A stretch of 64,000 bases of DNA from Pseudobdellovibrionaceae bacterium (GCA_019637955.1 JAHBUS010000001.1:372001-436000), one strand, 5' to 3'; shown: positions 22,496 through 40,178, counted from the first letter of the stretch. Notes: a model not told the origin generated them from the sequence alone. A program made the numbers and translations.

Positions 22496-22522
22496 TTTTT
22501 AAAAGAACCAACGAGGACTCAA

Positions 22523-23368: not shown

Positions 23369-23386
23369 ACTCCGGGGGGGGCTCTC

Positions 23387-24949
23387 ATGAGTCGCAATTC
23401 GATGCTGATCGTTTTCGTGGCGGTGCTCGCGAGCCTGCTCGAGATCATCGACACGTCCATCGTGAACGTGGCCCTGCCTTCAATGATGGGAAACTTGGGC
23501 GCGACCCTTGAAGACATCTCGATGGTGATCACCGGCTACGCGATCGCCAACGCCGTCGTTCTGCCGCTTTCGGCATGGCTGGGTGAGCGGATCGGACGCC
23601 GCAAATACTATCTGGGCTGCATTCTCTTCTTCACCGCGACGTCGGTGGCCTGCGGCTTCGCGCCGAACCTGTTTTTGCTGACCGTCTTCCGCATCCTGCA
23701 AGGGTTGGCGGGCGGCGCGCTTCTCCCCACCTCACAAGCTTTGATCTACGAACAGTTTCCCAAAGAAAAAGCGGGCATGGCCGGCGCCATCTTCGGGATG
23801 AGCGTGATGATCGGCCCGACATTGGGTCCGGTCATGGGCGGTTACCTCACCGACGAGTTCGGCTGGCGCTCGATCTTCAACGTCAATCTTCCCCTCGGTC
23901 TGCTCGCCTTTTTCGTCGGCCTCGCGGTCATTCGCAACCCCGAACACTCCAAACAGCCTGAAGGCGCGGTTCGCCCCAAACTCGATGCGGTGGGCTTGGG
24001 TCTGTTGGTCGCCGGGATCGGATGCTTGCAGTACGTGCTCGAGCGCGGTGAGGCCGACGACTGGTTCTCGTCGACCGCGATCATTGTGAACACCATTTTG
24101 GCCGTCGTGTGCCTCCCCACCTTCGTTTGGTGGGAACTCAAAGTTGAAAATCCCATCATCAACATCCGCCTCTTCAAACAGTCGATCGTGCGCAACGGCA
24201 CCCTACTCATGATGTTCGTGGGCTTCTTCTTGTACTCGGTGGTCTTTTTGCTGCCGGTCTTCGTGGGCCGCGTGTTTCATTACGATGCGACCCAGACCGG
24301 CGCCCTGTTCATTCCGGGCTCGCTGCTGACCATGGCCTTGATGCCGATGATCGGAAAACTCATGCAAGCCGGAAAGAACCCCAAGATTCTGATCCTGATC
24401 GGGTTCTTGAGCATCGAACTCTGCCTGTACATGATGACCCTGTTTTCGCCGCTCACCTCGAAGCCCGAATTGTACATGATGCTCTTCGTGCGTGGCTTCG
24501 CGTTGGCCTTCTTGTTCGTGCCGATCAACTCCTCGATCCTGAGCCAGTTTCACGGCGCGGCCCTCGGCCAAGTGTCGGGCCTCTTGAATCTGTTCCGGCA
24601 GATCGGCGGCAGCGTGGGCATCGCCCTGGTCGGGACGCTGCTCAATTCGCGCAGCCATCAGAACTACCTGGATCTGACGTCGAAAGTTTCGATGCTCAAC
24701 CCGAACACGCAGGCGTTCGTGAACCAAACGTCTCAGGGCCTTTCGAAAAAAATGGTCGAAGACATGGGACGCGCGAGCGGACACGACGCGACCTTGCAGA
24801 TCTTGTATTACAAAATTCAGAATCAGGTGTTCATGATGAGCTTTCTCCAGCTGATCACGGTGATCATGATCCTTTTCTCGCTGGCCTTCATCCCGCTTTA
24901 CCTGCTCCGCCTGCGTGAAAAACCGGTCTTGGTCACGGACGCCCACTGA
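23387..24949 (+). CDS. DHA2-family MFS multidrug exporter (EmrB/QacA type)
   Basis: Proton-driven drug exporter with 14 predicted membrane segments, 520 aa. Motif A-like WLGERIGRRKYYLG and the motif C region MSVMIGPTLGPVMGGYLTDE identify the 14-TM DHA2 subfamily; ASLLEIIDTSIVNVALPSM is the standard first segment (motif D1). Last gene of the tolC-emrA-emrB operon, ending before a 365-bp gap. Export substrates are unknown; the MarR regulator suggests induction by lipophilic or phenolic compounds. Confidence 0.93.
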   Translation: MSRNSMLIVFVAVLASLLEIIDTSIVNVALPSMMGNLGATLEDISMVITGYAIANAVVLPLSAWLGERIGRRKYYLGCILFFTATSVACGFAPNLFLLTVFRILQGLAGGALLPTSQALIYEQFPKEKAGMAGAIFGMSVMIGPTLGPVMGGYLTDEFGWRSIFNVNLPLGLLAFFVGLAVIRNPEHSKQPEGAVRPKLDAVGLGLLVAGIGCLQYVLERGEADDWFSSTAIIVNTILAVVCLPTFVWWELKVENPIINIRLFKQSIVRNGTLLMMFVGFFLYSVVFLLPVFVGRVFHYDATQTGALFIPGSLLTMALMPMIGKLMQAGKNPKILILIGFLSIELCLYMMTLFSPLTSKPELYMMLFVRGFALAFLFVPINSSILSQFHGAALGQVSGLLNLFRQIGGSVGIALVGTLLNSRSHQNYLDLTSKVSMLNPNTQAFVNQTSQGLSKKMVEDMGRASGHDATLQILYYKIQNQVFMMSFLQLITVIMILFSLAFIPLYLLRLREKPVLVTDAH

Positions 24950-25314: not shown

Positions 25315-26373
25315 ATGAAACAGATGATGCTCAAACAGTTGGTGCTGACGCTTGCGGCGATTTCCTTTCTGTCGGCGTGCGATAAAGGCGAGCGCTCTTT
25401 TTCGATCCTCGCGGACGAATCCAACTTCTCGCAGTCTCCTGAGTTCGAAATCGTTCCCCAAAAGATCGATATCTTATGGGTGATCGACAACTCCGGCTCG
25501 ATGGCCACGTCGCAATCGCAGCTGGCGAACAATATGAACCGCTTCATCTCGCGCTTTCAGTCTTTGAAGTACGACTTCAATATGGCCGTCACCACGTCGG
25601 ACGCGGTCTTCGGCCAATTTTGGGGCGACGACTCCACACGTCTTTTGCGTGATGGGATTCCCGGCGAAACTTCATCGGGCGTTCGCATCATCAACAAAGA
25701 CACGCCGAATATGAGCAACGTGTTCATCACCAACGTCATGCAAGGAATCGATGGCAACGGTGATGAGCGTGCCTTCTCGAGCTTCCAATCGGTTTTGACT
25801 TACGGCCCGAACGCGGGTTTCCGTCGTGCCGGTGCCTTCTTGGCCATCATCATCCTTTCGGACGAAGATGACTTCTCGGCCACCACCGACGCCTACCTGG
25901 GCAACAACTACAACGATTCACGCCTGATTCCGGTTGCCAACTACAAGACCTTCCTCGATGGCCTGGTCGGTGTGGGCAATCACAGCGTGAACACCATTTC
26001 GATTTTGGACGAGGCTTGCCGCGTGCAGCTCGCGGACTCGTTCGCCGGCCGCATCGTGGGCCGCCGTTACAACCAACTCGCCGACCTGACCGGAGGCGTG
26101 AAGACTTCGCTCTGCGGAAACTTCGGCGACAACCTTCAGCTCATCTCGGACACCATCATCAATCAAAAGCTGGAAGTGTCGTTCAAGCTCACACGCGAGC
26201 CCCAAGTGTCTTCGATCGTGGTCCGCGTGAACGGCGCCTTGATTCCTCAAGATGCCGCCAATGGCTGGACTTACAATGCGTCGACCTTGACGCTCACCTT
26301 CCACGGAACCTCGGTTCCGCCGGCAGGGGCTTCGATCTCGATCGCCTACGACCCCGTTGGACCCAAGAACTAA
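25315..26373 (+). CDS. vWA-domain lipoprotein (CglB-like adhesin candidate)
   Basis: Predicted outer-membrane lipoprotein, 352 aa. Start at the ATG 5 nt after AGGAGG; signal peptide with lipobox FLSAC (Cys22). A von Willebrand A domain follows: KIDILWVIDNSGSM with the MIDAS residues Asp58, Ser60 and Ser62, then a Thr-bearing MAVTTSDAV and an acidic LSDEDDFSATTDA. The last 65 residues form a beta-rich tail (VRVNGALIPQDAANGWTYN). In Myxococcus gliding the surface adhesin CglB is a vWA outer-membrane lipoprotein. First gene of the motor operon. Homology to CglB itself is inference. Confidence 0.85.
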   Translation: MKQMMLKQLVLTLAAISFLSACDKGERSFSILADESNFSQSPEFEIVPQKIDILWVIDNSGSMATSQSQLANNMNRFISRFQSLKYDFNMAVTTSDAVFGQFWGDDSTRLLRDGIPGETSSGVRIINKDTPNMSNVFITNVMQGIDGNGDERAFSSFQSVLTYGPNAGFRRAGAFLAIIILSDEDDFSATTDAYLGNNYNDSRLIPVANYKTFLDGLVGVGNHSVNTISILDEACRVQLADSFAGRIVGRRYNQLADLTGGVKTSLCGNFGDNLQLISDTIINQKLEVSFKLTREPQVSSIVVRVNGALIPQDAANGWTYNASTLTLTFHGTSVPPAGASISIAYDPVGPKN

Positions 26374-26380
26374 GGAGCGG

Positions 26381-26974
26381 ATGAGTATGTTGAACATGGA
26401 AATCGCGACTTCGAACGAATGGCACTTGATGAAGGGTGAGCACCAATACGGTCCTTACACCTACGAAGCCATGGTTCAGATGAAGCAGAACAACCTGCTC
26501 TTCGACTTCGACTTCGTTTGGTCGCCCCACATGGACCAATGGACGATGGTGTCGGACTTGGCCGAGTTCTCGATGGACCGCATGAGCCGTCTCGTCGAGA
26601 AATCGCCCAGCTCCGAGGCGTTCAACAAACGCAGCCATGACCGCGTGGTCGTGGATCTGCCCTGTCTCGTTCACGACGAGACGCGCTTGTGGAAGGGCCG
26701 CGTGCAGAACCTCAGCGAAGGCGGTGCCTTGATTCTGGTCGAGAATCCGCTCTTTTTGCCCGGCGACATCATCACGCTGCACGTTCGCGGCGCAAACGGG
26801 ATGGAAAAGCCGTTCAACTGCACGGCGCAAATTTTGAACAAACGTTTGGTGAAAACAAAAATCCATCACGACACCGCCCTTCATTACGCCGTGAAATTTT
26901 TGAACCTCACCACGATCGGGACGACTGAAGTCAGCCGCATGGTCGGCCAGGCTTTGAAAACGAAAACAAAATAA
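26381..26974 (+). CDS. GYF-domain plus PilZ-domain protein
   Basis: Cytoplasmic protein of 197 aa. Residues about 9-60 form a GYF_2-like domain (WHLMKGEHQYGPYTYEAM, then VWSPHMDQWTMV). Residues about 75-175 form a PilZ domain with both c-di-GMP motifs intact: RSHDR (RxxxR) and NLSEGG (NxSxxG). The ATG at 26381 has AAGGAG upstream and starts 7 nt after the vWA stop. A GYF domain also occurs in Myxococcus GltJ. The fusion suggests c-di-GMP control of the motor encoded by the next genes. Confidence 0.88.
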   Translation: MSMLNMEIATSNEWHLMKGEHQYGPYTYEAMVQMKQNNLLFDFDFVWSPHMDQWTMVSDLAEFSMDRMSRLVEKSPSSEAFNKRSHDRVVVDLPCLVHDETRLWKGRVQNLSEGGALILVENPLFLPGDIITLHVRGANGMEKPFNCTAQILNKRLVKTKIHHDTALHYAVKFLNLTTIGTTEVSRMVGQALKTKTK

Positions 26975-27008
26975 CCAAAAGTTACTTAACACATAGAGGA
27001 GAGAGACA

Positions 27009-27731
27009 ATGACTTCATTTCTGCAATTCATCAATGATTCGGGCGTCGTCGGCTGGTGCATCATGCTCCTTGGACTCGGTTCTTTGGCACTGATCGTTGA
27101 ACGTGCCAACGTTCTGTACTTCAAATTCGGTATGAACACCGATGAGTTCATGACCAAGATCCAAACTTTGGTTCTGGCTCGCAAAACGGACGAGGCTTTG
27201 GTTCTTTGCAACCAAATGCAGGGCAAACCCCTCGCCAACTCGTTCAAAACCATCCTCGAAAAAGCGGACCGCGATGATGACACCATCTTCCAGGCTCACG
27301 ACATCGCGATGGCCGAGAACATGCCCCACTTGACCAAACGCCTTCACTACCTCTCGATGCTCGCCAACGTGGCGACACTGATGGGTCTCTTGGGTACCAT
27401 CCACGGTCTGATCCTCTCGTTCGCCGCGGTCGCGCAGGCCGACCCCGCGCAGAAGCAAGCCATGCTCGCCAACGGTATCGCCGTTTCGATGTACACAACG
27501 GCTTTGGGTCTCGTGGTGGCGATCCCCGCGATGATCTTCTACTCGTTCTTGGTTTCGCGCCAAAATGAGCTCGTGGAGCAAATGACCGAGAAGTGCGGAA
27601 AATTGACCGAGATGCTGACCGGTTCGCACATCCAGTCGCTCTCGCGCCAGGCGATCTTCCCCGACAGCATCGGTAAAGACACCGTCGCTGCAGGTAAGAC
27701 AACGCCTCCTCCTTCGAACCGCGCTTCTTAA
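27009..27731 (+). CDS. TolQ/ExbB/AglR-family motor channel subunit
   Basis: Inner-membrane subunit of a proton-driven motor, 240 aa. Three membrane segments: GWCIMLLGLGSLALIVERA (about 16-34), VATLMGLLGTIHGLILSFAAVA (about 120-140) and GIAVSMYTTALGLVVAIPAMIFYSFL in two blocks (about 158-185). The GTIHG and TTALGL motifs are the channel signature of TolQ/ExbB/MotA proteins. AGAGGAGAGAG precedes the ATG. Followed by two ExbD/TolR-like genes, the AglR-AglQ-AglS arrangement of gliding machines. Confidence 0.92.
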   Translation: MTSFLQFINDSGVVGWCIMLLGLGSLALIVERANVLYFKFGMNTDEFMTKIQTLVLARKTDEALVLCNQMQGKPLANSFKTILEKADRDDDTIFQAHDIAMAENMPHLTKRLHYLSMLANVATLMGLLGTIHGLILSFAAVAQADPAQKQAMLANGIAVSMYTTALGLVVAIPAMIFYSFLVSRQNELVEQMTEKCGKLTEMLTGSHIQSLSRQAIFPDSIGKDTVAAGKTTPPPSNRAS

Positions 27732-27747
27732 TTTTAGAGGGTGACGT

Positions 27748-28296
27748 ATGAGAAAACGGTTTAAACCGAAAATTTCACACAGCTACGAGTTTGAGCTCGA
27801 CCTCGCGCCGCTGCTCGCGGTGATGGTGAAGCTCGTTCCCGTGCTGTTGATCTCGAGCGCCTTCGTGCAGGTCATGGTCATCGAGACCGACCTGCCCCAG
27901 GCCGTTAAAGAAGCCGTGCAGAACCAAGAAGACAATAAAGACCTCGCTTCGGTGCAGATCGATGTCTCTCGTCAAGAGGGCATCAAAGTGATCGTCGCGA
28001 AACAAGGTCAACAGTCGGTCGAAAAGATTCCCGTCCTCACCGACGGCAGTTTCGATCTGCCGGCTCTGCACAAGCAATTGCAAAAGGTGAAAGCCGAAAA
28101 CCCGAAAGTGTTTAGGCTCGAACTCGTCCCTGGCGGTGACATCTCTTACAACGAGATCGTCAAAATCATGGATGAGGCCCGTAAGTCGCGAGACAAAGAC
28201 GTGCGCTTCCCGGTGTGGGATTCAACCAAGCAAAAGGACGTCGAGACGGACTACATGTTCCCCGACGTGACTTTCGCGAATGTGATGGAGGGCTAA
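27748..28296 (+). CDS. ExbD/TolR-like subunit lacking the conserved Asp
   Basis: 182 aa: short cytoplasmic N-terminus, one membrane segment (about 19-41) and a periplasmic peptidoglycan-binding-type domain. In TolR/ExbD the segment reads PLLD or PLID with the proton-carrying Asp; here it reads APLLAVMVKLVPVLL, so Ala24 sits at the Asp position. The remaining fold (VSRQEGIKVIVAKQ, GDISYNEIVKIMDEAR) is family-typical. It starts 16 nt after the TolQ-like gene and ends 3 nt before the second ExbD-like gene, so the two probably form a heterodimer. Confidence 0.85.
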   Translation: MRKRFKPKISHSYEFELDLAPLLAVMVKLVPVLLISSAFVQVMVIETDLPQAVKEAVQNQEDNKDLASVQIDVSRQEGIKVIVAKQGQQSVEKIPVLTDGSFDLPALHKQLQKVKAENPKVFRLELVPGGDISYNEIVKIMDEARKSRDKDVRFPVWDSTKQKDVETDYMFPDVTFANVMEG

Positions 28297-28299
28297 ACG

Positions 28300-28797
28300 A
28301 TGGCTTACCGACGTAAGACCCCCGATTATGCGCCCAAAGCAAAAACCTTCGCTTTGAACATCACGTCGATGACGGACATGTTCACGATCCTGCTCGTGTT
28401 CCTGCTGCAGACGTACTCAACCGCTGATTTTAAAGTTGAGCCCGTTCAAGGCGTGAGTCTTCCTCTTTCGAACGCAACAACGGAGCCGACCAAAGCGGTC
28501 CAAGTTTCGTTGACCAAGACCGAACTGATTATCGAGGGACGCACCATCGCTTCGCTCGATCAAGGTCACTTCGGCAAGGCGGATCTCGAAAGCTCGGACT
28601 CGAACTTTATCAAGCCGCTGTTCTCGGAGCTTGAAAAATTCGCCAAAGAAAAAGCGGACGATCCTTCCGTTAAGGAAGGAAAGGTCGTTTTTCAGGCCGA
28701 TTCATCGCTCAGCTACGACATGATCCGTAAGGTCATGTACACGGCCTCGATGGCCGGCTTCCCGAAACTCAAAATGGCAACTGTCGTGGGGAATTAA
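28300..28797 (+). CDS. ExbD/TolR-family motor subunit with proton-carrying Asp
   Basis: 165 aa with one membrane segment, LNITSMTDMFTILLVFLLQTY, which retains the conserved Asp (Asp26) that carries protons in ExbD/TolR/AglQ-S stators. The periplasmic part ends with DSSLSYDMIRKVMYTASMAGFPKLKMA, the standard family C-terminus. Immediately follows its Asp-less partner. With the TolQ-like protein it should form the ion channel that energises the TonB-like and TPR proteins encoded downstream. Confidence 0.9.
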   Translation: MAYRRKTPDYAPKAKTFALNITSMTDMFTILLVFLLQTYSTADFKVEPVQGVSLPLSNATTEPTKAVQVSLTKTELIIEGRTIASLDQGHFGKADLESSDSNFIKPLFSELEKFAKEKADDPSVKEGKVVFQADSSLSYDMIRKVMYTASMAGFPKLKMATVVGN

Positions 28798-28801
28798 CAT
28801 C

Positions 28802-31800
28802 ATGAAACAGCTTCTTCTGACCGCCCTCATCGTCTTGACCTGCAATCCCGTTTGGGCTCAAGCCAAAACGGACAAAGGTCTTTTGCCCGAGCTCAAACTC
28901 GACAAGAGCAATGAGGATCTCAATCAGAAGAAGGCCGTTCAATCGGAGGTCTTGATCACGAAATCCGAGATCAAGGCCATTCAAGCCCTAAACGCCGTTC
29001 TAAAAAAACAAAAAGGCTCGCCCAACGAACCCGATCTCTGGTTCCGCCTGGCCGAGCTCTACATGCGCCGCGCGAAATCGGGCCGTTTCTTCGACCTGAC
29101 TCGCGGTCAAGAAGACTCTCCGGTGAAGTTCGCTCCCCCGGACGTGCGTGACGAAAGCGCCGTCGCCAACCTCAAACAGGCCATCGGCATTTACACCAAA
29201 ATCGAGCGTGAGTTCCCGAATTTCCGCGAGATGGACGTGGCGATGTTCAACAACGCCTTCGCCAGTCAACAAATCGGCCAAAAGAAAAATGCCGAAGCCA
29301 CTTACGCGCGTCTGATTTCGAAATACCCGAAATCGATGCTGCTCCCCGACGCCTTCCTGGCTCAAGGGGAGATGTACTATGACGCCGGCCAGTTCACCTT
29401 GGCGCTGGAATCTTTCAAAGCCATCGAGAAGTTCCCTGGTTCGCGCGTTTATTCCTACGGTTTGTACAAGCAAGCCTGGGCTCACTACAATTTGAAACAA
29501 AACGACGAGGGCATCAATAAACTCCTCGACGTCGTAAAATTCTTCGACCCCAAGAACACGCAGAAAACGCGCGTGTCGCACAACCTGCGTTCGGAAGCCC
29601 TGCGCGATCTCGCCCTTTTCTTTGGTGAGAACAAATCGGCCGATGAGGCTTACGCGTTCTTCGCTAAAATCTGCACGCCCGAAGAGCTGGGCGAGTCGAT
29701 GATCAACCTCGGAAAACTCTACGACAGCCACGGCCGTCAAAAAGAGATGAACGTGTTCCTCGCGGAATACATCAAAAAGAACGACGATTCTCCTTTACGC
29801 ATCAAAGCCGAAATGCTCTTGATCCAAGGGAACGAAACTTTGAAGAACCGTCCCGAAGTCATCAAGCATATGGAAGCCGCCGCCGACGTTTGCCGTCCCA
29901 ATTCTTCGTGGCGCAAACTCTACCCCACGTCGTCGGAGGGAGATTGCGACTACGACTTGGCCAAGACCAATCTCGACATCGCCAAAAAATGGTGGGAACT
30001 CTGGCTTAAAAACAAATCGAACAAAGATATGGCGGATTTGACCGAGCGCGCCTTCAAGATCCACTTGGACCGCGAAGACCCTTTGAAGCCTGATGCCAAG
30101 TCGCACTATGCCTACGCCGAACTCTTGTTCCAACAGGACAAGTTCCGCGAAGCTTCGGTTCAATACGAATTCGCCGCTCAGAAATCGACCGACACCCAGA
30201 TCGCCCACGACGCCGCTTACTCGGCGCTCGTGTCGCTCGAAAAGGCCTCGCAGAAAAGCGAGAAGTCCGGCGACAACGCCAAACAAGTCGAGCTCGGCCA
30301 GACTTATTTGAAAAAATACCCTGCGGGCGTTCAAGCTTCTCAGGTCAAATACAAAATTGGTTTCATCGCCTACGAAGAGAAGAACTTCGCCGAGTCTGAG
30401 AAATGGCTGGGGCCCATTGCCCTGGATACCAAGCAAGACCCGACTTTGCGCACCCGCAGCCAAGACTTGATGCTCGACATGCTCAACGCCCGCGGCGATC
30501 TCGCGTCACTGCGCGACTTCTCTAAAAAGGTGATGGACGGCTCCGACAATGCGGACCGCAAGAAAAGCATGCATAAAATCATGCAGGAAGCCGACTTCAA
30601 CAGCATCCAGAAGGATATGGAGAAGGCTCAAGTCACCGAGAATATTCAAAAGCTCGTGACCTTCCACAACGAGAACAAAGCCTCGGGCCCCGCTTTGGCT
30701 AAAAAAGCGTTGAAGCAGGCGATGAGCCTCGCGTTCACGAACGGCCGCTCGCTCGAAGGCGCGGACCTGGCCATCCAGTACGCCCGCACTTATCCCGACG
30801 ACACCGAGACGACCGCGGCCCTGCGCGAAGCCGCCAAACATTACAACGAGCAAGGCTTCATGCTGCGCGCGGCCAGCACCTTCGAACTTCTGGCTCCCCG
30901 TCTCAAAGGCCAAGAGCAGACGCAAGTCTATGAGGCGCTCAGCGAGATCTACGTTCTTGAAAACCGCAAGCAAGACGCCCGCGAGTTCCTGGGCAAACTT
31001 CTGGACGGCGCCGATAAAAAAGAGCAAGGCAAAATCTACTCGCGCCTGATGCAGACTTACAAAGGCGAAGAGTCGTCGGCCGACTACGCCAAACTCGAGA
31101 ACAAGATCCTGTCGCTGAACATTCAGCCTTCGGCGTCGGAAATCTTGGTCAAACGCGTGCAGAAGCTCTTCGACAGCAAAAAATACACCGAAGCTTTCAA
31201 CTCGGCCAAATCTCTGGTCGGTTCGGATGCACCCCCCGCGATCCGCGCCCAGGCCCGTTTGATTCAAGCCAAAGTTCTCGAAACCGAGATGACGTCGGCG
31301 AGCACCAAGACCACGCTTGAGCGCCTGCCCTTGGTTCTGTCGATCAAAACCGAGAAACTCGAAAAAGCTCAAGCCGGCTTCTTGGCCGCGGCCAGCTACT
31401 CGAACGATCCCAACGTTCAGCTCTCGACGCTCGAGGGTCTGGCGCGCATCTACAAAAACTACGTGGAAACCGTGGGTTCGCCCATCATCAAAACGTCGAT
31501 GTCGGCGGAAGAGTCCAAGGCTCTGAAAGACGAGCTCACCAAACTCGTGACGCCCATCGAGCAGAAACAAAAAGACATCGAGAAAAAACTCATGGCGTTG
31601 GCGAAAGCCGAGAAAACGGCCACCACGGCGGAACTTGATTTCGTGAATCTGCCTTTGAATGAAACCGTGAAACCCCGCATCCCCGCCATCGCCTTCGAGA
31701 ACATGTCGCCCTACTTGCCCAAACTCACGCAAGTCGAAGGCCTGTTCGTTGAACGCGACAACGCGGTGACCGGCGCCTGCCAAACCGAAGCGAAAGACCT

Positions 31801-32548
31801 GCAAAAAGACCTCGCCGGCTTGATGGCCCTGGCCAACCGCTGCGTGGCTCAGAAGAAATTCACGCAGATCGAAAAAATCGCGGCCCGCATGGCGGAGCTT
31901 GAGCCCAAATCGGGCGCGGCTCCCTACTACCTGAGCCTCGCGGCGATGGGATTGGGCCTGAAAGAAAAATCGCTGTACCTGATCGAACTCGCGCTCAAGA
32001 AAAACTCGGACCGCACGTTCTTCTGGTATCAGAAGGCCGTCGCCCTCGGTGCGACGGGCGATCGTGCCGGTGCCAACCAGTGGATGATCAAAGCGTTCGA
32101 CGAGCGCCTTGATGCTTGGGAAACCAAATTGCTCCACGGCGTGGTGGCCTTCTCGCAAGGCGACTGCTTCTCGGTGACCGATGACTTCAAAGCCCTCCCC
32201 GCGAGCCAGGTTGAAAAATTCGATCTGACTCCCGCTTTCGCCGAGTGCATGGCGCAAAAAGGTGAGATCGACCAAGCCCTGGGCTTCGCGCAGAAGTCTT
32301 ATGATACGAAGAAGTCCCTGACTTTGGCCCTGCAGCTGGGACACATGGCTGAAGTCTATAAATCCGATTCGAAACTCGCGGCCCAAGCTTACGAGAAGGC
32401 CCGCTCGGTGTCGTCGGACGAGACCCAAAAAGAATGGCTGAAACGCAAAATTGAATGGCTTAACAACCCCGGAGCCGCCGTCTCCGAGACCTCTTCGCAC
32501 GTCAGTTCACAGGTCGCTCGAGGCACAGGTTTGGGAGGTGCACAATGA
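28802..32548 (+). CDS. Large periplasmic TPR protein
   Basis: 1248 aa with a signal peptide (MKQLLLTALIVLTCNPVWAQA) followed by many tetratricopeptide-type helical pairs over nearly the whole length, for example DLWFRLAELYMRRAKSG, LPDAFLAQGEMYYDAGQF, GSRVYSYGLYKQAWAHYNLK and PYYLSLAAMGLGLKEKSL. Very large TPR proteins are scaffolds of Myxococcus Glt machinery (GltD/GltI types), but the individual orthology here is inference. Begins 4 nt after the ExbD-like gene and overlaps the next gene by 4 nt. Probably periplasmic, binding envelope partners. Confidence 0.85.
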   Translation: MKQLLLTALIVLTCNPVWAQAKTDKGLLPELKLDKSNEDLNQKKAVQSEVLITKSEIKAIQALNAVLKKQKGSPNEPDLWFRLAELYMRRAKSGRFFDLTRGQEDSPVKFAPPDVRDESAVANLKQAIGIYTKIEREFPNFREMDVAMFNNAFASQQIGQKKNAEATYARLISKYPKSMLLPDAFLAQGEMYYDAGQFTLALESFKAIEKFPGSRVYSYGLYKQAWAHYNLKQNDEGINKLLDVVKFFDPKNTQKTRVSHNLRSEALRDLALFFGENKSADEAYAFFAKICTPEELGESMINLGKLYDSHGRQKEMNVFLAEYIKKNDDSPLRIKAEMLLIQGNETLKNRPEVIKHMEAAADVCRPNSSWRKLYPTSSEGDCDYDLAKTNLDIAKKWWELWLKNKSNKDMADLTERAFKIHLDREDPLKPDAKSHYAYAELLFQQDKFREASVQYEFAAQKSTDTQIAHDAAYSALVSLEKASQKSEKSGDNAKQVELGQTYLKKYPAGVQASQVKYKIGFIAYEEKNFAESEKWLGPIALDTKQDPTLRTRSQDLMLDMLNARGDLASLRDFSKKVMDGSDNADRKKSMHKIMQEADFNSIQKDMEKAQVTENIQKLVTFHNENKASGPALAKKALKQAMSLAFTNGRSLEGADLAIQYARTYPDDTETTAALREAAKHYNEQGFMLRAASTFELLAPRLKGQEQTQVYEALSEIYVLENRKQDAREFLGKLLDGADKKEQGKIYSRLMQTYKGEESSADYAKLENKILSLNIQPSASEILVKRVQKLFDSKKYTEAFNSAKSLVGSDAPPAIRAQARLIQAKVLETEMTSASTKTTLERLPLVLSIKTEKLEKAQAGFLAAASYSNDPNVQLSTLEGLARIYKNYVETVGSPIIKTSMSAEESKALKDELTKLVTPIEQKQKDIEKKLMALAKAEKTATTAELDFVNLPLNETVKPRIPAIAFENMSPYLPKLTQVEGLFVERDNAVTGACQTEAKDLQKDLAGLMALANRCVAQKKFTQIEKIAARMAELEPKSGAAPYYLSLAAMGLGLKEKSLYLIELALKKNSDRTFFWYQKAVALGATGDRAGANQWMIKAFDERLDAWETKLLHGVVAFSQGDCFSVTDDFKALPASQVEKFDLTPAFAECMAQKGEIDQALGFAQKSYDTKKSLTLALQLGHMAEVYKSDSKLAAQAYEKARSVSSDETQKEWLKRKIEWLNNPGAAVSETSSHVSSQVARGTGLGGAQ

Positions 32549-32841
32549 CAACAATGGGAACGCGCACCTTTGGTGCGACAACAACTCGACTAGCAAAAAG
32601 TCTGACTCTCTTGCTCGTGGCCGTCTTAGGGCTTGTTCTGGCTCTGCCGGCTCAGGCCAAGACGAAAACTGTCCGAAAAGTTCAAGAAGTGAACTTCGGG
32701 GAGATGAGTCTGAAAGGCACGATTCGCAACCCTGATGGAGCTTACCTGGTGCAGAAACGCGGGATCAAATTCATGCCCCTGTACGACGTACAGAAAGACA
32801 TGGACACCAAAATCCGCGATTCCGTCCAGTATGTGCGATGA
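32545..32841 (+). CDS. 98-aa exported protein of the motor operon
   Basis: Small protein with a long basic n-region, a hydrophobic core (LTLLLVAVLGLVLALPAQA) and a mature part of about 57 residues containing VQEVNFGEMSLKGTIRNPDG, then YLVQKRGIKFMPLYDVQ. I do not recognise a named family. The ATG is coupled to the end of the TPR gene (ATGA), with GGAGGTG upstream, and the stop overlaps or abuts the AgmX-like gene, so it is co-translated with both. A CGCACC-TTT-GGTGCG hairpin lies in the codons just after the start. Confidence 0.8.
   Translation: MTTMGTRTFGATTTRLAKSLTLLLVAVLGLVLALPAQAKTKTVRKVQEVNFGEMSLKGTIRNPDGAYLVQKRGIKFMPLYDVQKDMDTKIRDSVQYVR
32563..32577 (+). repeat. Operon hairpin copy 1 (CGCACC-TTT-GGTGCG)
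   Basis: Perfect 6-bp stem with a 3-nt loop, inside the first codons of the 98-aa gene. Closely similar hairpins recur at 35131-35145 and 37305-37319 in the same operon. Confidence 0.5.
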
Positions 32842-32849
32842 GGATGTGT

Positions 32850-34328
32850 ATGCAAAACTTATTGATTGAACAGCGCGGCCCCAACGGCCTTATGAAAACA
32901 TGGCGTTTGCGTCCTGACCAAGGCTCGGTGAGCTTTGGCAGCTCGAAGTTTGCGGAGCTGCGCTCCCCGATCGAGACCCTCAAGGGCATTCAAGGCGTTT
33001 TCGAGTACCGCGACGACAAATGGGTCTACGTGAATCTCGACGTGCGCACGCAAGAGACCGACAACGTCGTCGAACTCACGTTGGACAAACCCACCGAGAT
33101 CCGTGTCGGCACGATGTCGCTGCAAGTGATTCCGCTCGAAGTGCGCCGCACTTTGTTCCAAAGCCTGGAGAGCGCCGAGTTTCTGAAACCCGCTCCCGAC
33201 CGCAAGCCTTTTCAGTTGGTGACGACTTATCACGGCGCCAAATTGCTCGAGACGTTGGTTTTGCCTCTGGGAAAAACCTTCGTTTCGAAATTCGATGCGA
33301 CCTTCACGAAAATGGCGACTTCGCAAACCGAGTCGTGGATGCGCTCGAAACTGGGCGACCTCGAAATCTCCCAGCGCACCATCTACCTGACGTCGGTCGA
33401 AGCGATGAGCATGATCACCAAAGATCAGCTCATCGACGATGGCGGCCGCAAGACCATGTACGCAACGCTCGCGGGTTCCGCTTTGCTCGCGCTGCTCTTC
33501 TTGCTCTCGCCCAATTCGAAAACCGTGGAAGAGGTGGCCGTGGCCGCCGCTCCCCCGGTGGAGTACCGCGAGATGAAACTTACGCCGCCGAAAAAGAAGA
33601 AACAATCGGCGCCGATGCAGGCGCAAGTGCAGCCTCCGAAAGCGGAGCAGGCCAAAGCCGAATCGGCCCAGCCTGCGGGCGCGGCTCAAGCGTCGGGCGG
33701 CGGCAAGGCGGTCTCGGCGATCAAGGCTCTGGGTTCTTCGCGCATCTCGCAATTGATCGGTAAAATCTCGGCCTCGTCGGCCAAGTCGGCTAACATCGTC
33801 GTGTCAAACGGCGTCGCGGCCGGCTCAGCGCCGTCGGGACGCGCGCTCGCGGCCGTCGGGAACGTGACGACATCGGGCAAAGACTGGTCCGGCGACGGCA
33901 AAGGCCAAGGCGTGCAAATCGGCACGGCGGGCGTTGCGGGCGGCGGCTCGGTGAAAGGCATGGGCGGCATCGCGGCGGGTAAAACCGGCAGCGGCGGCGT
34001 CGGCCTTCTCGAAGAGGATGGCGAAGTGGTGGGCGGTTTGGACCGCGAGGTCATCGCGGCCTACATCCGCTCGAAACTCGGCGAGATCCTTTATTGTTAT
34101 GAACGTCAATTGTCGGCGCAGCCCGACCTGTACGGCAAAGTGGGCGTGAAGTTCACCATCGCCGGGACGGGCCAGGTGGAAACTCAGCGCATCGGCGAAA
34201 CAACTTTGAAAAACGGAACGGTCGAGGGCTGCATCCTCACGCGCGTGGCGAAATGGAAATTTCCCACACCCGAGGGTGGCACGAAGGTGATGGTCACCTA
34301 CCCCTTCCTGTTCAAGAGCACGAACTAA
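32850..34328 (+). CDS. TonB-like protein with AgmX/PglI C-terminal domain (GltG-like)
   Basis: About 492 aa. The N-terminal 100 residues (LIEQRGPNGLMKTWRLRPDQ...) resemble a small FHA-like beta domain by pattern only. Residues about 203-220 form one membrane segment (TLAGSALLALLFLLS), followed by a Pro/Ala/Gly-rich periplasmic linker. The C-terminal domain (REVIAAYIRSKLGEILYCYE, then TVEGCILTRVAKWKFPTPEGG) is the TonB-related AgmX/PglI domain. Cytoplasm-to-periplasm topology fits the GltG/GltJ role of transducing motor force. ATG at 32850 preferred because GAGG lies 6 nt upstream; ATGs at 32838 and 32844 are alternatives. Confidence 0.88.
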   Translation: MQNLLIEQRGPNGLMKTWRLRPDQGSVSFGSSKFAELRSPIETLKGIQGVFEYRDDKWVYVNLDVRTQETDNVVELTLDKPTEIRVGTMSLQVIPLEVRRTLFQSLESAEFLKPAPDRKPFQLVTTYHGAKLLETLVLPLGKTFVSKFDATFTKMATSQTESWMRSKLGDLEISQRTIYLTSVEAMSMITKDQLIDDGGRKTMYATLAGSALLALLFLLSPNSKTVEEVAVAAAPPVEYREMKLTPPKKKKQSAPMQAQVQPPKAEQAKAESAQPAGAAQASGGGKAVSAIKALGSSRISQLIGKISASSAKSANIVVSNGVAAGSAPSGRALAAVGNVTTSGKDWSGDGKGQGVQIGTAGVAGGGSVKGMGGIAAGKTGSGGVGLLEEDGEVVGGLDREVIAAYIRSKLGEILYCYERQLSAQPDLYGKVGVKFTIAGTGQVETQRIGETTLKNGTVEGCILTRVAKWKFPTPEGGTKVMVTYPFLFKSTN

Positions 34329-34374
34329 CAACACGAGAACTTAAAGAATTTGCATCACAGCCACGGGAGGCTCA

Positions 34375-35121
34375 ATGAAAACGGCACTCATGATTTTCGC
34401 AGCACTGACGGCCACAAGCTTAACCGCTTTTGCCCAAGCCAAAGACTCCAAAGACTCGGACAAACTCGACCTGAAAAAGCTCGAGGACAAGTACTGGGCC
34501 GCGAAGGACACCGATTTTTCGGTCGTGCAGAACCGCACGTACAACAAAGAAAAGCGCCCGTTCGTGACTTTGAGCTACGGTCCCATGGTCAATGACGAAT
34601 GGTCGGTCGGCCGCATGACCAACATCGCGGGCGGCTATTACTTCACCGAACGTTGGGGTTTTGAAATCGCGCACGAAATGGGCGACCTGAAAGAGAACGA
34701 CGGGTTGATTCAGATCAAGAGCTACAACGGTCTGCAGCCCAACTACAATAAATTCGTCAGCTACACGTCGGCGAATCTGATCTGGGTTCCGTTCTACGCG
34801 AAAATGAGCTTCATGGATCGCAAGATCGTTTACTTCGATATGCAGTTCGCGCTCGGCGTGGGGAACATGACTTACGAAAATCAGCTCGATCCCTCGGAGA
34901 CCAGCAACGAGAAGAAAACCACCCTGGGTTACAACTTCGATTTCACCCAGCAGCTCTTCTTCAGCGAACACTTCGCGGTTCGTTTAGACGTGAAGAACAA
35001 GTGGTCGAAACAGGATTTGATGCGTTACCGCGTGCAGGGTTCGGGATCGACGAGCCGTGACTTGGGCACCACCAACCGCCAAGACACCTCGATCCTGCTG
35101 GGTCTGACATTCTTCTATTAA
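34375..35121 (+). CDS. Outer membrane beta-barrel protein of the motor operon
   Basis: 248 aa with a signal peptide (MKTALMIFAALTATSLTAFAQA) and an amphipathic-strand region from about residue 60: PFVTLSYGPMV, TNIAGGYYFTERWGFEIAHE, IVYFDMQFALGVG, FAVRLDVKNKWS and a terminal SILLGLTFFY ending in an aromatic residue, the usual outer-membrane barrel signal. It resembles the outer-membrane barrel family found with myxobacterial gliding clusters (GltA/B/H-like). RBS GGGAGG lies 5 nt upstream. It probably gives the complex its outer-membrane exit or anchor. Confidence 0.85.
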   Translation: MKTALMIFAALTATSLTAFAQAKDSKDSDKLDLKKLEDKYWAAKDTDFSVVQNRTYNKEKRPFVTLSYGPMVNDEWSVGRMTNIAGGYYFTERWGFEIAHEMGDLKENDGLIQIKSYNGLQPNYNKFVSYTSANLIWVPFYAKMSFMDRKIVYFDMQFALGVGNMTYENQLDPSETSNEKKTTLGYNFDFTQQLFFSEHFAVRLDVKNKWSKQDLMRYRVQGSGSTSRDLGTTNRQDTSILLGLTFFY

Positions 35122-35130
35122 GTTTGACTG

Positions 35131-35145
35131 CGCACCGTTGGTGCG
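35131..35145 (+). repeat. Operon hairpin copy 2 (CGCACC-GTT-GGTGCG)
   Basis: Perfect 6-bp stem with a 3-nt loop in the gap between the barrel and the second TPR gene, 25 nt before the next start codon. Flanking bases (GCGACGAC) resemble copy 1. Confidence 0.5.
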
Positions 35146-35170
35146 ACGACTTGTGCCCATCGGAGGGCTT

Positions 35171-37300
35171 ATGCAAAAGGCATCTTGGACCGTCATCATT
35201 CTTGGAACTTTGCTCGCCGCCAACGCATCGGGCGAGCTGAAGAAAAAATCGGAAGGCCGCGCCGCCGATCCTTCACTCAAGGTGAAGCAGTCGGGCGTTC
35301 CGCAGTACGAAATTTACCAAAAGAAAAAAGTCGGCGGAAAGACGGAAGTCTACCGCGTGAAGAACATTCCCCGCCTGAACATCGGCGAGGAGGCGTCTTT
35401 TCAGTCGGCCGCGCTGCAAACTCCTGAGCTTCCCGCAGCGAAGAAATTAAAACTGACGGACGTCAAAAAACGTCCGGAAGTTCCGACGGTTTCGATCGAA
35501 AAGGCTTTGCAATGGGCCGGAAAACCCGTCACCGAGCCCAAAGTCGTCTCGGACCCCACGAAGATCGCCCAAGTTCCGTTTTTTCAAGAGCCCCTGCCCG
35601 TTCAAGATCCCAGCGTGATCAAGCCGGAGTTGAACCAGGTCGAGATCAAAGATCTGACCCCCGTGGAACTCAAAATGCTCCAGGCGCTGATCTTCCTCGA
35701 AATCCAGAAGAACTACCCGATGGCCCTGGGCCTCTTCGCCGAGCTTCTCGACGAAGCCCCCGAATTCCGCACCGAGGCCACCTACAACTTGGCGCTCACC
35801 GGCAAAGGCCTGGGTCTTTACTCGGAGTACCGTCACCAGATGCTCAAGGTTCTCGACGATAAAAAGACCGAGTGGCAAAAGCGCGCCGCGCTCAGCTTGG
35901 TTGAAAGCTCGGCCGAAGGCGACACCTCGTTGGTGTCGATCTTGGATCCCAAACTCGAGAAATTCAAAATCGAACTCGAAAAAACGGATCAGTATCAGCT
36001 CAACCGCGCCAAATACTACTTGGCTCAGGACGATCTGAAAACCGCCATCGCGGCCACCGAAAAAATCATGATGAATTCGCCCCTGTACAATGACGCCCTC
36101 TTCTTAAAAGGCGTTCTGTTGTACAAAAGCGGTCAGCCCGACACCGGCATCTTGACCGTGGCGTCGGCCTTGGCGGAGATCGAGAAAAAAGCGCCGCAAA
36201 GCGAACTCAAGTCGATCGCGGCCCTGACTTTGGCGCGTTTGTATTTCCAGACCGCCGACTACAAATCGGCGTTCCAGACGTACCTGAAAATCGACAAGGC
36301 CCACCCCGAATGGCCCACGGCCATGATCGAACAAGCCTGGTCGCAAATCTTGGCCGGAGATCACGAGGGTGCGGCGGGCAACATGTTCTCGTTGCACACC
36401 GATTTCTTTAAAAACACCTTCGCTCCCGAGTCGTACGTGGTGCGCACCGTGGGCTACTTGAACCTCTGCCAATTCGGCGATGGCGCCCGCGTGGTTCAAG
36501 ACATGAAAAAGCGCTACACGCCCGTTCAAGAGCGCATGCAGCAGTACCAGTCTTCGCACAAATCGGAACTCGAGTATTACGAGACCGTGAAGCGCTTTAT
36601 GAAAGACGGCACCTCGAAAGAGATCGACGGTCTTCCCCGCGGCTTCGTCTGGGCCCTGGCCCGTCACCCGAGCTTTATGCTCGAACAAAAGAACATCAAT
36701 TCGATCGAAGACCAGGTGTCGCGCTACAACCGCATCACCATGGATCTGATCAAACGCGAGAAGTTCCTGCTCGCCGACCAGGCTTTGGTGCGCAACCGCA
36801 TCATCGAGCTGAAGAAAAAACTCAAACCCAAAGAGACCACGCCCGAAATCGCCGATCTTGAAAAGCGCCTGCTCAGCTTTAAGATTCAGCACTTCATCGT
36901 TAAAAAGGCCCGCACTTCGATCAAAGACGTGCGCGCTCAGGGCCTGGCCCGTATCGACAAAGAGAAGCAGGAGCGCAAAGTGGCGGCCGGAAAAGCCCTC
37001 ACGAGCCGTTTCCAGAATCTGCTGAGCAATCTGACCACGTCGCTCGATCAGACCGACGTTCTTCAGTACGAGCTGTTCGCGGGCGCGGGTGAACACCTGC
37101 GCTACCAAGCCGCTGGCGGCGACATCGATCCCAAACAGGCCAAAGGCCTCAAACCCGAAGAGAACCGTCAGCTGAAATGGGAGTTCAAAGGCGAAGTTTG
37201 GGAGGATGAGCTCGGTCACTACCGCTCGTCGCTCAAAAACGTTTGCCCCGAAGTCGAAGACAATGGCGGCAACCAGGTTTCTTCCGTCGATAATAAATAA
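35171..37300 (+). CDS. Second large periplasmic TPR protein
   Basis: 709 aa; the ATG with GGAGG 5 nt upstream gives a signal peptide (ASWTVIILGTLLAANASGE). An N-terminal basic region is followed by TPR-like repeats, for example LKMLQALIFLEIQKNYPMAL, FRTEATYNLALTGKGLG, ALFLKGVLLYKSGQPDTGI and LARLYFQTADYKSAFQTYLK. The C-terminal third is a Lys/Glu/Leu coiled coil ending in a short Trp-containing domain. No lipobox, so likely soluble periplasmic. Probably a scaffold linking the inner-membrane motor to the outer-membrane barrel; the GltC/E/D assignment is left open. Confidence 0.83.
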   Translation: MQKASWTVIILGTLLAANASGELKKKSEGRAADPSLKVKQSGVPQYEIYQKKKVGGKTEVYRVKNIPRLNIGEEASFQSAALQTPELPAAKKLKLTDVKKRPEVPTVSIEKALQWAGKPVTEPKVVSDPTKIAQVPFFQEPLPVQDPSVIKPELNQVEIKDLTPVELKMLQALIFLEIQKNYPMALGLFAELLDEAPEFRTEATYNLALTGKGLGLYSEYRHQMLKVLDDKKTEWQKRAALSLVESSAEGDTSLVSILDPKLEKFKIELEKTDQYQLNRAKYYLAQDDLKTAIAATEKIMMNSPLYNDALFLKGVLLYKSGQPDTGILTVASALAEIEKKAPQSELKSIAALTLARLYFQTADYKSAFQTYLKIDKAHPEWPTAMIEQAWSQILAGDHEGAAGNMFSLHTDFFKNTFAPESYVVRTVGYLNLCQFGDGARVVQDMKKRYTPVQERMQQYQSSHKSELEYYETVKRFMKDGTSKEIDGLPRGFVWALARHPSFMLEQKNINSIEDQVSRYNRITMDLIKREKFLLADQALVRNRIIELKKKLKPKETTPEIADLEKRLLSFKIQHFIVKKARTSIKDVRAQGLARIDKEKQERKVAAGKALTSRFQNLLSNLTTSLDQTDVLQYELFAGAGEHLRYQAAGGDIDPKQAKGLKPEENRQLKWEFKGEVWEDELGHYRSSLKNVCPEVEDNGGNQVSSVDNK

Positions 37301-37304
37301 AGCG

Positions 37305-37319
37305 CGCACCGAAGGCGCG
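37305..37319 (+). repeat. Operon hairpin copy 3 (CGCACC-GAA-GGCGCG)
   Basis: A 15-nt hairpin like copies 1 and 2 but with one A-C mismatch in the stem, between the second TPR gene and the coiled-coil gene, just upstream of its RBS. Confidence 0.4.
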
Positions 37320-37332
37320 ATAAGAGGTGGAC

Positions 37333-37971
37333 ATGAGAACAACAATCTTTCTGACAGCACTGATGATGGCAACCCCCGCCTGGGCGCAAACGACCGCGCA
37401 AGGAGGCTTGGACCGCCTTCAGACGAACTACAACAATTCGAAATCGAATCTCGAGGATTACCAAAAAAACCTCAAGATCACCGAGGGCAATTTGACCGAG
37501 GTCTCCAAAGCGAAATCGCAGGTGGAAGCCCAGGACAAAGACGTGGCCAAGGCCTCGGAGGAGAACAAAAAGAACCTCGAAGCCGTGGGTGCGCGTGAAG
37601 CCGAGCTGAACGCCCTCATCCAAGACGAGCAAAAACAGATTCAGGCCGAGGAGCAGAAACTGCAAGAACTCGAAAAGTTGACGGCGCAGCTCAAAGACAA
37701 TCAGAAAAAGCGCCAAGCCAACATTCAAAATTACGAAGAGCAAAAACGCGGCGTCGCCTCCGAGAAAAAAGAGTGGCAGTCGCGCCAAGAGCAAATCGCC
37801 AAAACCCAGTCGCAAGTCAAATCGAAGCTCACGGCCTTGAGCGGCCAGGAGACCGATTGGAAGAACAAAAAACGCGGCTACGAAGGCGAAGTGGGCCGTT
37901 GGCAGAAGGAAGTCGACCGCGAGAAGAAGCTCGTCGACACCTACCAGTCCCTGTCCGAAGTGAAGGACTGA
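37333..37971 (+). CDS. Periplasmic coiled-coil protein of the motor operon
   Basis: 212 aa with a signal peptide (MRTTIFLTALMMATPAWAQT) followed by an almost uninterrupted charged coiled coil (about residues 25-205, rich in Glu, Lys and Gln). Two Trp-containing stretches (EWQSRQEQIAKTQSQ, WKNKKRGYEGEVGRWQ) break the pattern. No named family recognised. Last gene of the operon, with GAGG 5 nt upstream and a terminator about 50 nt downstream. A periplasm-spanning rod or spacer is a reasonable guess, no more. Confidence 0.8.
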   Translation: MRTTIFLTALMMATPAWAQTTAQGGLDRLQTNYNNSKSNLEDYQKNLKITEGNLTEVSKAKSQVEAQDKDVAKASEENKKNLEAVGAREAELNALIQDEQKQIQAEEQKLQELEKLTAQLKDNQKKRQANIQNYEEQKRGVASEKKEWQSRQEQIAKTQSQVKSKLTALSGQETDWKNKKRGYEGEVGRWQKEVDREKKLVDTYQSLSEVKD

Positions 37972-38024
37972 TTCCGGGCTTGATAACGGCGTGATCTCAA
38001 CTTGAGACGCGCCCGTTTAAACCG

Positions 38025-38059
38025 AAAGAGTTTGGCTCTAAAAGCCAAGCTCTTTTTTT
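38025..38059 (+). terminator. Rho-independent terminator of the motor operon
   Basis: AAAGAG-T-TTGGCT and AGCCAA-G-CTCTTT form a 12-bp stem with one internal mismatch around a CTAAA loop, followed by a T-run. Confidence 0.85.
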
Positions 38060-38558: not shown

Positions 38559-40178
38559 CTACCGGCCCAGACGCCGGCGTATTTTTGAACTGAAGGTGGT
38601 CCAGGTCGTCTGGAACTCTTCGACCTTCAAGGCGGCGCTCAGGCCCGCATAGACCACCGAACCCACCAAAATCGACAAGAGCAGCGCCGTCATTTTGCCG
38701 ATAAAGCTGATCCCGCCTTGCGTGCTGAACAGGCCGCGCAAAGGCTCGTAGACCATCAGCGCCCCCGCCATCACCGCCCCCATGAACAGAAAAACGGCAA
38801 AGCTCTTCAGAACCTTCCACCAACCGAAACGGCCGATGAAGTGGCGGTAAAACGCCGCCAGCAGCAGGAAGTTGAGCGAGCTGCTCAAAACCGACGAGAA
38901 GTTCAAACCGTAAAATCCGAAGCGGTTCATCAACACCGGCGCGATGCCAATGTGCATGACCAAACAGATGGCCGAAACCAAACCCGGGAACCAGGTGTTT
39001 TTCAGGGCGTAGTAAGTCGGCACAAACACGCGCACCAAGCTCGTCGAAATGATCAAGGCCGAGTAGATCTTGACCACGCCCGCGGTCATCAGCGCCTCGG
39101 CGGGCGTGAATTTTCCGCGTTGAAACAGGAGCTCCACGATCGGCTCGGCGAGCACGAACAAGCCGATCGCCGCGGGCACGCAGACGTAAAGATTCAAGCG
39201 CAGGTAGTAGTTGCTGGTCGACGACATCTCGTCGGCTTTGCCCTGGGCCCACATGCGCGAGAGCGTCGGCAGGAGCGCGGTCCCGATGGACACGCTCACT
39301 AGCGAGAGCGGCAGCTCCAGCAAACGGTCCGCGAGATTGATGAAGCTGATCGGCCCCTCGCCAAACTCGGAGGCAAAGCGCATGTTCACGAGAGTGGTGA
39401 TTTGCAAAAGACCCATCCCCAAGAGCCCGGGACCCATGCTGCGCAAAACGCGCCAGACATCGGGGTCGTTGAACGAGAACGTCAGTTTGGGCCAGTAGCC
39501 CGTGCGGCGCAAAGAAGGGATCAAAACCGCGGCCTGCACGATTCCGCCCACGATCACGCCCCAAGCGAGCGCCTGCCCTTCCCATTGCAGCCACGTGGTC
39601 GGGACCAGGGTCGCGGCGATGATGCAGACATTAAAGAAGGTCGGCGCCATGGCCGCCAGTCCAAAACGTCCCAGCGCGTTTAAGATCGCCATGAAGTAGG
39701 CGTAGGTGCAGACCAAAAAGATGTACGCGAACATGATTCGCGCCATCAGCACCGTCAGGTCAAACTTGCCGGGGACGGCGCGGTAGTTCTCGTCCAAAAG
39801 AAAGTTCAGCAAGGGCTCCGGAAAGATCGTTCCGATCGCCGTCAGAACCGCCAAGAGTAGAAAAAAGAGGGTGTAGAACCCGTTTACCAGCCGGTGCGAG
39901 CGCTCCAGGCCCGATGGGTCCAACCGGGTTTCGACGAACACCGGGACGAAGGCCACCGACAGCGAACCCTCGCCAAACAAACGGCGGAAGATATTCGGGA
40001 GCCGAAAAGCCACGTACCAGGCGTCGGTGACGGTCCGCGAGAAGAGGGCGGCAAAGAGAGATTCGCGCACCAACCCCAAAACTCGGCTGGTCAGGGTGCC
40101 CAGAGCCATTAAAACGGCTTGGACGACCACCTGCCCGCCCTTTTCCTGTTGCTGAGGCACATGCGGCGTGCTATTCAT
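38559..40178 (-). CDS. murJ: Lipid II flippase MurJ
   Basis: MOP-superfamily flippase (539 aa, about 14 membrane segments) moving lipid II across the inner membrane for peptidoglycan synthesis. The N-terminal block LGTLTSRVLGLVRESLFAALFS and IFRRLFGEGSLSVAFVPVF are diagnostic MviN/MurJ motifs. The C-terminal tail is basic (SKIRRRLGR). Divergent from rpsT with only about 30 bp between the start codons, so the two promoters must overlap each other's coding or leader regions. Confidence 0.95.
   Translation of the reverse strand: MNSTPHVPQQQEKGGQVVVQAVLMALGTLTSRVLGLVRESLFAALFSRTVTDAWYVAFRLPNIFRRLFGEGSLSVAFVPVFVETRLDPSGLERSHRLVNGFYTLFFLLLAVLTAIGTIFPEPLLNFLLDENYRAVPGKFDLTVLMARIMFAYIFLVCTYAYFMAILNALGRFGLAAMAPTFFNVCIIAATLVPTTWLQWEGQALAWGVIVGGIVQAAVLIPSLRRTGYWPKLTFSFNDPDVWRVLRSMGPGLLGMGLLQITTLVNMRFASEFGEGPISFINLADRLLELPLSLVSVSIGTALLPTLSRMWAQGKADEMSSTSNYYLRLNLYVCVPAAIGLFVLAEPIVELLFQRGKFTPAEALMTAGVVKIYSALIISTSLVRVFVPTYYALKNTWFPGLVSAICLVMHIGIAPVLMNRFGFYGLNFSSVLSSSLNFLLLAAFYRHFIGRFGWWKVLKSFAVFLFMGAVMAGALMVYEPLRGLFSTQGGISFIGKMTALLLSILVGSVVYAGLSAALKVEEFQTTWTTFSSKIRRRLGR

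Follow-up and report, generated by a model that had tools for sequence, protein, structure and literature searches.

The operon described here, at positions 25315-37971 (+ strand) of the window, a 64,000-nt stretch from a Pseudobdellovibrionaceae bacterium (GCA_019637955.1, JAHBUS010000001.1:372001-436000), is the ortholog, gene for gene, of the already described Bd1473-Bd1483 operon of B. bacteriovorus HD100. Our explanation of it, as an Agl/Glt-kind motor used for gliding and built around a heterodimeric axle, would hold as a whole with a probability of roughly two in three. Bd1473-Bd1483 is one of four published HD100 "gliding" operons and was discussed as such from 2008 to 2012 (PMC2277423, PMC2797640, PMC3271064). 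We call the operon an Agl/Glt-type variant, not a strict member of the type, because its first ExbD-like subunit (ExbD1) is without the transmembrane Asp.

An eleven-gene operon orthologous to Bd1473-Bd1483

The operon comprises eleven co-directional genes, one more than the ten counted in a preliminary description of this DNA, in the order vWA lipoprotein, GYF-PilZ protein, AglR, ExbD1, ExbD2, GltD/E-like TPR protein, GltF, GltG, outer-membrane barrel, GltC and coiled-coil protein. The gaps between successive genes are 13, 34, 16, 3, 4, -4, -4, 46, 49 and 32 nt, and a plausible ribosome-binding site precedes most of the genes. The same description had pointed to co-directional genes with small gaps and one terminator at the end, and both observations held, with spacings from -4 to +49 nt and an intrinsic terminator (14-bp hairpin plus T tail) closing the operon at 38024-38056 (+); no other terminator-like site on the + strand of the region is as strong. 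No promoter was identified for the operon, a consensus scan having yielded fewer sites than shuffled sequence. Directly upstream lies a TolC-EmrA-EmrB type efflux set (21164-24949, +). Past the terminator, on the opposite strand, are a small receiver-like protein and murJ (38559-40178, -), which adjoins the operon here and is found close to the window-type operon in several same-family relatives too.

For the comparison with HD100 we took genome G073 to be this strain, as its Bd0875 homolog matches the published protein in length (378 aa) and in D66, E213 and Y349 (PMC11003981). AgmX/PglI tails occur in G073 at 392, 786, 1396 and 2277 kb, among others, and in that order fit Bd0412-0420, Bd0828-0838, Bd1473-1483 and Bd2368-2377. 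The ortholog of the window operon is the 1396-kb locus, which carries the full eleven-gene set arranged as here, MIDAS gene first, with the PilZ protein and the coiled coil included. The described HD100 genes are Bd1483 (MIDAS), Bd1482 (PilZ), Bd1481 (aglR) and Bd1480 (aglQ); tags below Bd1480 were assigned by count, the eleven genes fitting Bd1473 to Bd1483. The two operons differ in that GltG identity is about 47-50% and the neighbouring genes are arranged otherwise. Gene-order comparison, which had been proposed as a check, recovered the same eleven-gene order in the relative BroJett040 as well and, with some variation, in dozens of further genomes, a recurrence of gene set and order far beyond chance. 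A GltG-like match of some kind was present in 274 of 291 genomes of the phylum, the strong full-length ones being in the same taxonomic order.

Motor, envelope and surface components

The third gene (27009-27731, +) encodes an AglR-like channel subunit of the TolQ/ExbB/MotA family (MotA_ExbB 1.3e-27), the ortholog of Bd1481, and the channel Thr residues are retained in the alignment. It is followed by ExbD1 in the AglQ position (27748-28296, +; ExbD 6.9e-17; ortholog of Bd1480) and ExbD2 in the AglS position (28300-28797, +; ExbD 2.7e-16), so that the TolQ-like channel with two ExbD-like subunits proposed earlier is upheld by Pfam. Since AglR and ExbD belong to the same superfamily as the import motors, and the best PDB matches are TolQ and ExbB, a Tol-Pal or ExbBD-TonB import system has to be weighed; we consider it highly improbable. 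The AglR protein scored 70 bits against a TolQ equivalog cut-off of 221 and 54 against an ExbB cut-off of 206, neither TolB nor Pal is among the eleven genes, and the partners GltG, GltC and GltF are present. In an AglR tree with the HD100 agl clusters and E. coli TolQ/ExbB as references, 42 window-type proteins formed one clade (support 96/96) to which neither the other Glt-linked clusters nor E. coli TolQ/ExbB belonged; the deep branching order of this tree was left unused because a MotA root gave an extreme branch. It is two other TolQ/ExbB-type loci of the same genome that group with the E. coli proteins. The HMM searches likewise returned Agl/Glt-type matches (GltG 4e-39, GltC 1e-30, GltF/CglF 3e-5). 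Grouping with Tol-Pal or Exb systems, which the preliminary description had named as the result that would overturn it, was thus not observed, and Tol-Pal/Exb membership was rejected on the widely missed cut-offs and the separate AglR clade.

Further comparison with the AglRQS-Glt system of Myxococcus xanthus (M1, G1, G2) was made via NCBIfam models, whose equivalog cut-offs are Myxococcus-tuned and were missed here. The TonB/AgmX-type transducer recognized earlier is GltG (32838-34328, +; GltG 4.3e-39, equivalog cut-off of 650 not reached; AgmX/PglI (SS) tail 1.2e-30). Like its Myxococcus counterpart it has an FHA domain and an SS tail, the whole consisting of a degenerate FHA, one transmembrane helix, a disordered linker and a TonB-like AgmX/PglI C-terminal domain. 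The FHA fold was found by Foldseek (1.3e-4), and Pfam FHA matched 19 of 41 aligned proteins; phosphopeptide binding by the window GltG is doubtful because its own FHA gave no Pfam match. Directly before it lies a gene for an exported 98-aa protein (32545-32841, +) with a match to the CglF model (2.7e-5, 24 bits), CglF being another name of GltF (PMC4488436). The match is weak alone, and position and size agree with it: gltF of M. xanthus encodes 89 aa and directly precedes gltG (PMC3169522). We identify the protein as GltF because of the match, the size and the place together. The preliminary description had been unable to name either this protein or the exported 212-aa coiled-coil protein encoded by the last gene (37333-37971, +); the former now has a name, and the latter belongs to no named family, yet is conserved at the end of most orthologous operons.

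Two TPR proteins are indeed present, as had been claimed, although at 1248 and about 710 aa they are not both giant. The shorter one is a GltC-like periplasmic protein (35171-37300, +; GltC 1.1e-30, 107 bits against a Myxococcus equivalog cut-off of 450), read from an ATG with an upstream TTG at 35138 as a possible start. The longer one (28802-32548, +) is GltD-like and probably carries a GltE-like part at its C terminus. GltD and GltE models gave no match in the window copy (NCBIfam), and the case for fusion comes from orthologs outside the window's own family, where a gene of about 1000 aa is followed in the same place by one of about 300 aa with TPRs and a lipobox-like start. The long products of these split genes match residues 4-973 of the 1248-aa protein and the short ones residues 989-1210, and the short gene occupies the gltE position of M. 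xanthus; the resemblance of TPR proteins to one another qualifies the GltE identity. A 1231-aa form of the long protein is also present in a genome of family f2 (G014). The outer-membrane barrel seen earlier is confirmed as a 248-aa protein of the GltA/GltB/GltH type (34375-35121, +; TIGR04565, OMP_myx_plus, 72.7 bits against a cut-off of 60).

The first gene (25315-26373, +), ortholog of Bd1483, encodes a 352-aa vWA/MIDAS protein, predicted to be a surface lipoprotein, with a lipobox Cys at 22 and DxSxS at 58-62. C22, D58 and S60 are invariant among 25 orthologs and S62 nearly so. Profile matches to a MIDAS adhesin (2.6e-14) and CglD (8.7e-8) were both below cut-off. A PDB sequence search with the protein returned nothing useful; a Foldseek search with its structure model (pLDDT 86.5) did match integrin beta heads (E 1.8e-9) and pilus adhesins, in accord with the vWA lipoprotein of the preliminary description. 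Elsewhere in the genome, a homolog of the prey-invasion MIDAS adhesin Bd0875 lies at C2:104961-106193 (L053; 308 bits, below the curated cut-off of 700). The second gene (26387-26974, +), ortholog of Bd1482, encodes a 195-aa protein in which the expected PilZ domain (Pfam 3.2e-13) is joined to a GYF_2 domain (2.9e-10) that had been overlooked. In the alignment the PilZ domain keeps the c-di-GMP-binding-type motifs RSHDR (RxxxR) and NLSEGG (NxSxxG), the second being variable in many orthologs.

The operon shares with M. xanthus AglR, two ExbD-like subunits, GltF, GltG, GltC and an outer-membrane barrel, its long TPR protein is GltD-like, and its vWA lipoprotein is comparable with CglB/CglD. It differs in being a single operon with one barrel and no GltI, GltJ or GltK gene, in the apparent fusion of GltE to GltD, in the joining of GYF to PilZ, in an AglQ-position subunit without Asp and in the extra coiled coil. 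Models for GltH, GltI, GltJ and GltK found nothing in the operon beyond the common GltJ tail and the one barrel, which is of unassigned type, and these four are reported absent from B. bacteriovorus. To call the set complete, as had been done, is therefore an overstatement; the nearest approach to the Myxococcus set in this genome is another of its five Agl/Glt clusters (the window's, L023, L024, L025 and L026). This cluster, L025 (contig C3), corresponds to HD100 Bd0828-0838 and contains two barrels, GltC, a long TPR protein, a GltE-like lipoprotein, GltF, GltG and motor genes; its GltC, GltF and GltG score better than the window's copies. L025 and Bd0828-0838 have the core of GltC, GltD, GltF, GltG and AglRQS in common with the window, and differ from it in that the two barrels come first, a GltE-like gene stands separately, the motor genes come last and Asp is kept in both ExbD subunits. 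In L023 (C1:688000-706000) and L024 (C14:66000-84000) the vWA gene is last, not first, and in L023 gltG is separated from the barrel gene by an additional gene for a lipoprotein-like product of 399 aa. The fifth cluster, L026 (C1:856000-874000), contains two barrel genes and an FHA-GltG/GltJ-like protein of 781 aa; none of the four described HD100 operons was assigned to it as a counterpart. At L029 (C8, ~316.6 kb) and L030 (C11, ~261.6 kb) there are short proteins with an AgmX/PglI tail, and no AglR-like gene was seen close to them. In family f9, the reduced loci L078 and L079 have PilZ, AglR, two ExbD and GltG, while their surroundings gave no match for TPR, GltF, barrel or GltC.

The proton-relay position of the ExbD pair

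An Asp in the membrane helix is a feature of ExbD, TolR and MotB. ExbD2 has it in all aligned operons. In ExbD1 the transmembrane proton-relay position is Ala24, not Asp (FELDLAPLLAVMVKLVPVL), and six residues earlier Asp18 replaces the usual Asn. The two positions change together: among the window-type or near operons of the alignment, the relay position is Ala, Ser or Gly in 35, all 35 of which have the earlier Asp, and the relay Asp is kept in 9, all 9 of which have Asn, the 35 being related and far from independent. ExbD1 of the HD100 ortholog shows the same Asp-to-Ala change. Both ExbD subunits keep Asp in the four other clusters of this genome and the three others of HD100, as do the two remaining ExbD proteins of this genome. 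Mapping on the tree put the number of changes at about four, of which well supported branches force two, and repeated origin or reversal of the swap is possible; an independent-pairs test found only two usable pairs, too few for significance. A search for compensating columns in AglR and ExbD2 between operons with and without the Asp returned differing columns that lack obvious mechanistic meaning. AglQ and AglS have been described as having a transmembrane Asp (PMC9389320). An ExbD/AglQ subunit without it was not found in the literature searched, papers outside that search being possible, and the swap appears to be undescribed.

Loss of the Asp is no decay, since ExbD1 is clearly under constraint; its transmembrane segment is almost unchanged across family f1. 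Read most simply, the residues suggest that AglR encloses a heterodimer of ExbD1 and ExbD2 in which there is one proton carrier of the usual kind, an obligate heterodimer being most likely because ExbD1 is without the relay Asp and its partner ExbD2 keeps it. A 2022 review describes as an open question whether AglR works with homodimers or with heterodimers of AglQ and AglS (PMC9389320). Without the Asp, a homodimer of ExbD1 would be unable to function in the normal manner, which would suit an axle formed by an ExbD2 homodimer, with ExbD1 outside it as a regulator or anchor. The near-invariant transmembrane segment and the tightly coupled swap, which suggest close packing in the motor, argue against that arrangement, as does the adjacency of exbD1 and exbD2 behind aglR in all these operons, and we regard it as rather unlikely. 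That there is a lineage of Agl/Glt motors with an obligate heterodimeric axle, one usual proton carrier and the other acid six residues cytoplasm-ward is a proposal we put forward tentatively, at slightly under even odds. If it is true, a 5:2 model would imply that the protons per turn are halved, or that the motor is a stepping or holding device.

Proposed mechanism and role in gliding

We propose a proton-driven motor of the Agl/Glt kind that would span the envelope and reach to a surface adhesin. AglR and the two ExbD-like subunits would assemble into an inner-membrane motor of 5:2 type, the axle being most likely the obligate ExbD1-ExbD2 heterodimer with its one canonical proton carrier. 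The motor would drive GltG through the GltG transmembrane helix, as two-hybrid data on the AglR-GltG interaction in Myxococcus suggest (PMC3169522), and the TonB-like end of GltG would transmit force to GltD/E, GltF and GltC in the periplasm and from there to the outer-membrane barrel. The surface MIDAS lipoprotein may then grip substratum, biofilm or prey. In the cytoplasm the GYF-PilZ protein probably switches the machine via a cyclic dinucleotide; Bd1482 has been proposed as a c-di-GMP receptor for gliding (PMC3271064).

Published HD100 data bear on what the machine might do. Insertions in Bd1481 and Bd1483 weakened predation on biofilms and left halos on lawns unaffected (PMC2277423), and expression of the operon rises during host-independent growth and falls in the early stage of predation (PMC2797640). 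On surfaces Bd1480 is induced, and its level drops in mutants of the cGAMP synthase Bd0367, which is needed for gliding (PMC9140294). Deletion of Bd1483 leaves predation normal (PMC11003981). These data point to movement on surfaces or in biofilms more readily than to entry into prey, and are suggestive only; with them, gliding on surfaces or in biofilms with the MIDAS adhesin is the use we consider most probable. A motor of the same kind might instead serve to shift or export a polymer or protein at the surface, as Agl-Nfs does when Myxococcus sporulates, or to make contact with prey. Agl-Nfs is reported to rotate a surface carbohydrate polymer (PMC3858216); the HD100 paralogs differ in expression pattern, and Bd0838 (aglS of a sister cluster) is required for prey attachment. 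The surface induction of Bd1480 and its tie to the gliding regulator Bd0367 speak against such a use, as do the operon's lack of any capsule or polymer gene and the unaffected invasion of the Bd1483 deletion mutant, and we judge it unlikely. Against our explanation count the preference of Luciano et al. for Bd0828-0838 as the gliding cluster, the normal predation of the Bd1483 deletion mutant, the missed Glt equivalog cut-offs and a literature search that yielded no gliding mutant of the Bd1473-Bd1483 operon; a 2026 review called the Bdellovibrio gliding machinery unidentified (PMC13104615). With five such clusters in this genome and four in HD100, the sister clusters could share or divide the task.

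The presence of the PilZ-GYF gene and the MIDAS adhesin alongside the motor genes makes one unit of second messenger, motor and adhesin. An axle subunit that naturally misses its proton carrier, here and in HD100, offers a simple genetic test of two questions, whether AglQ and AglS work as homo- or heterodimers, and which machinery drives gliding in Bdellovibrio.
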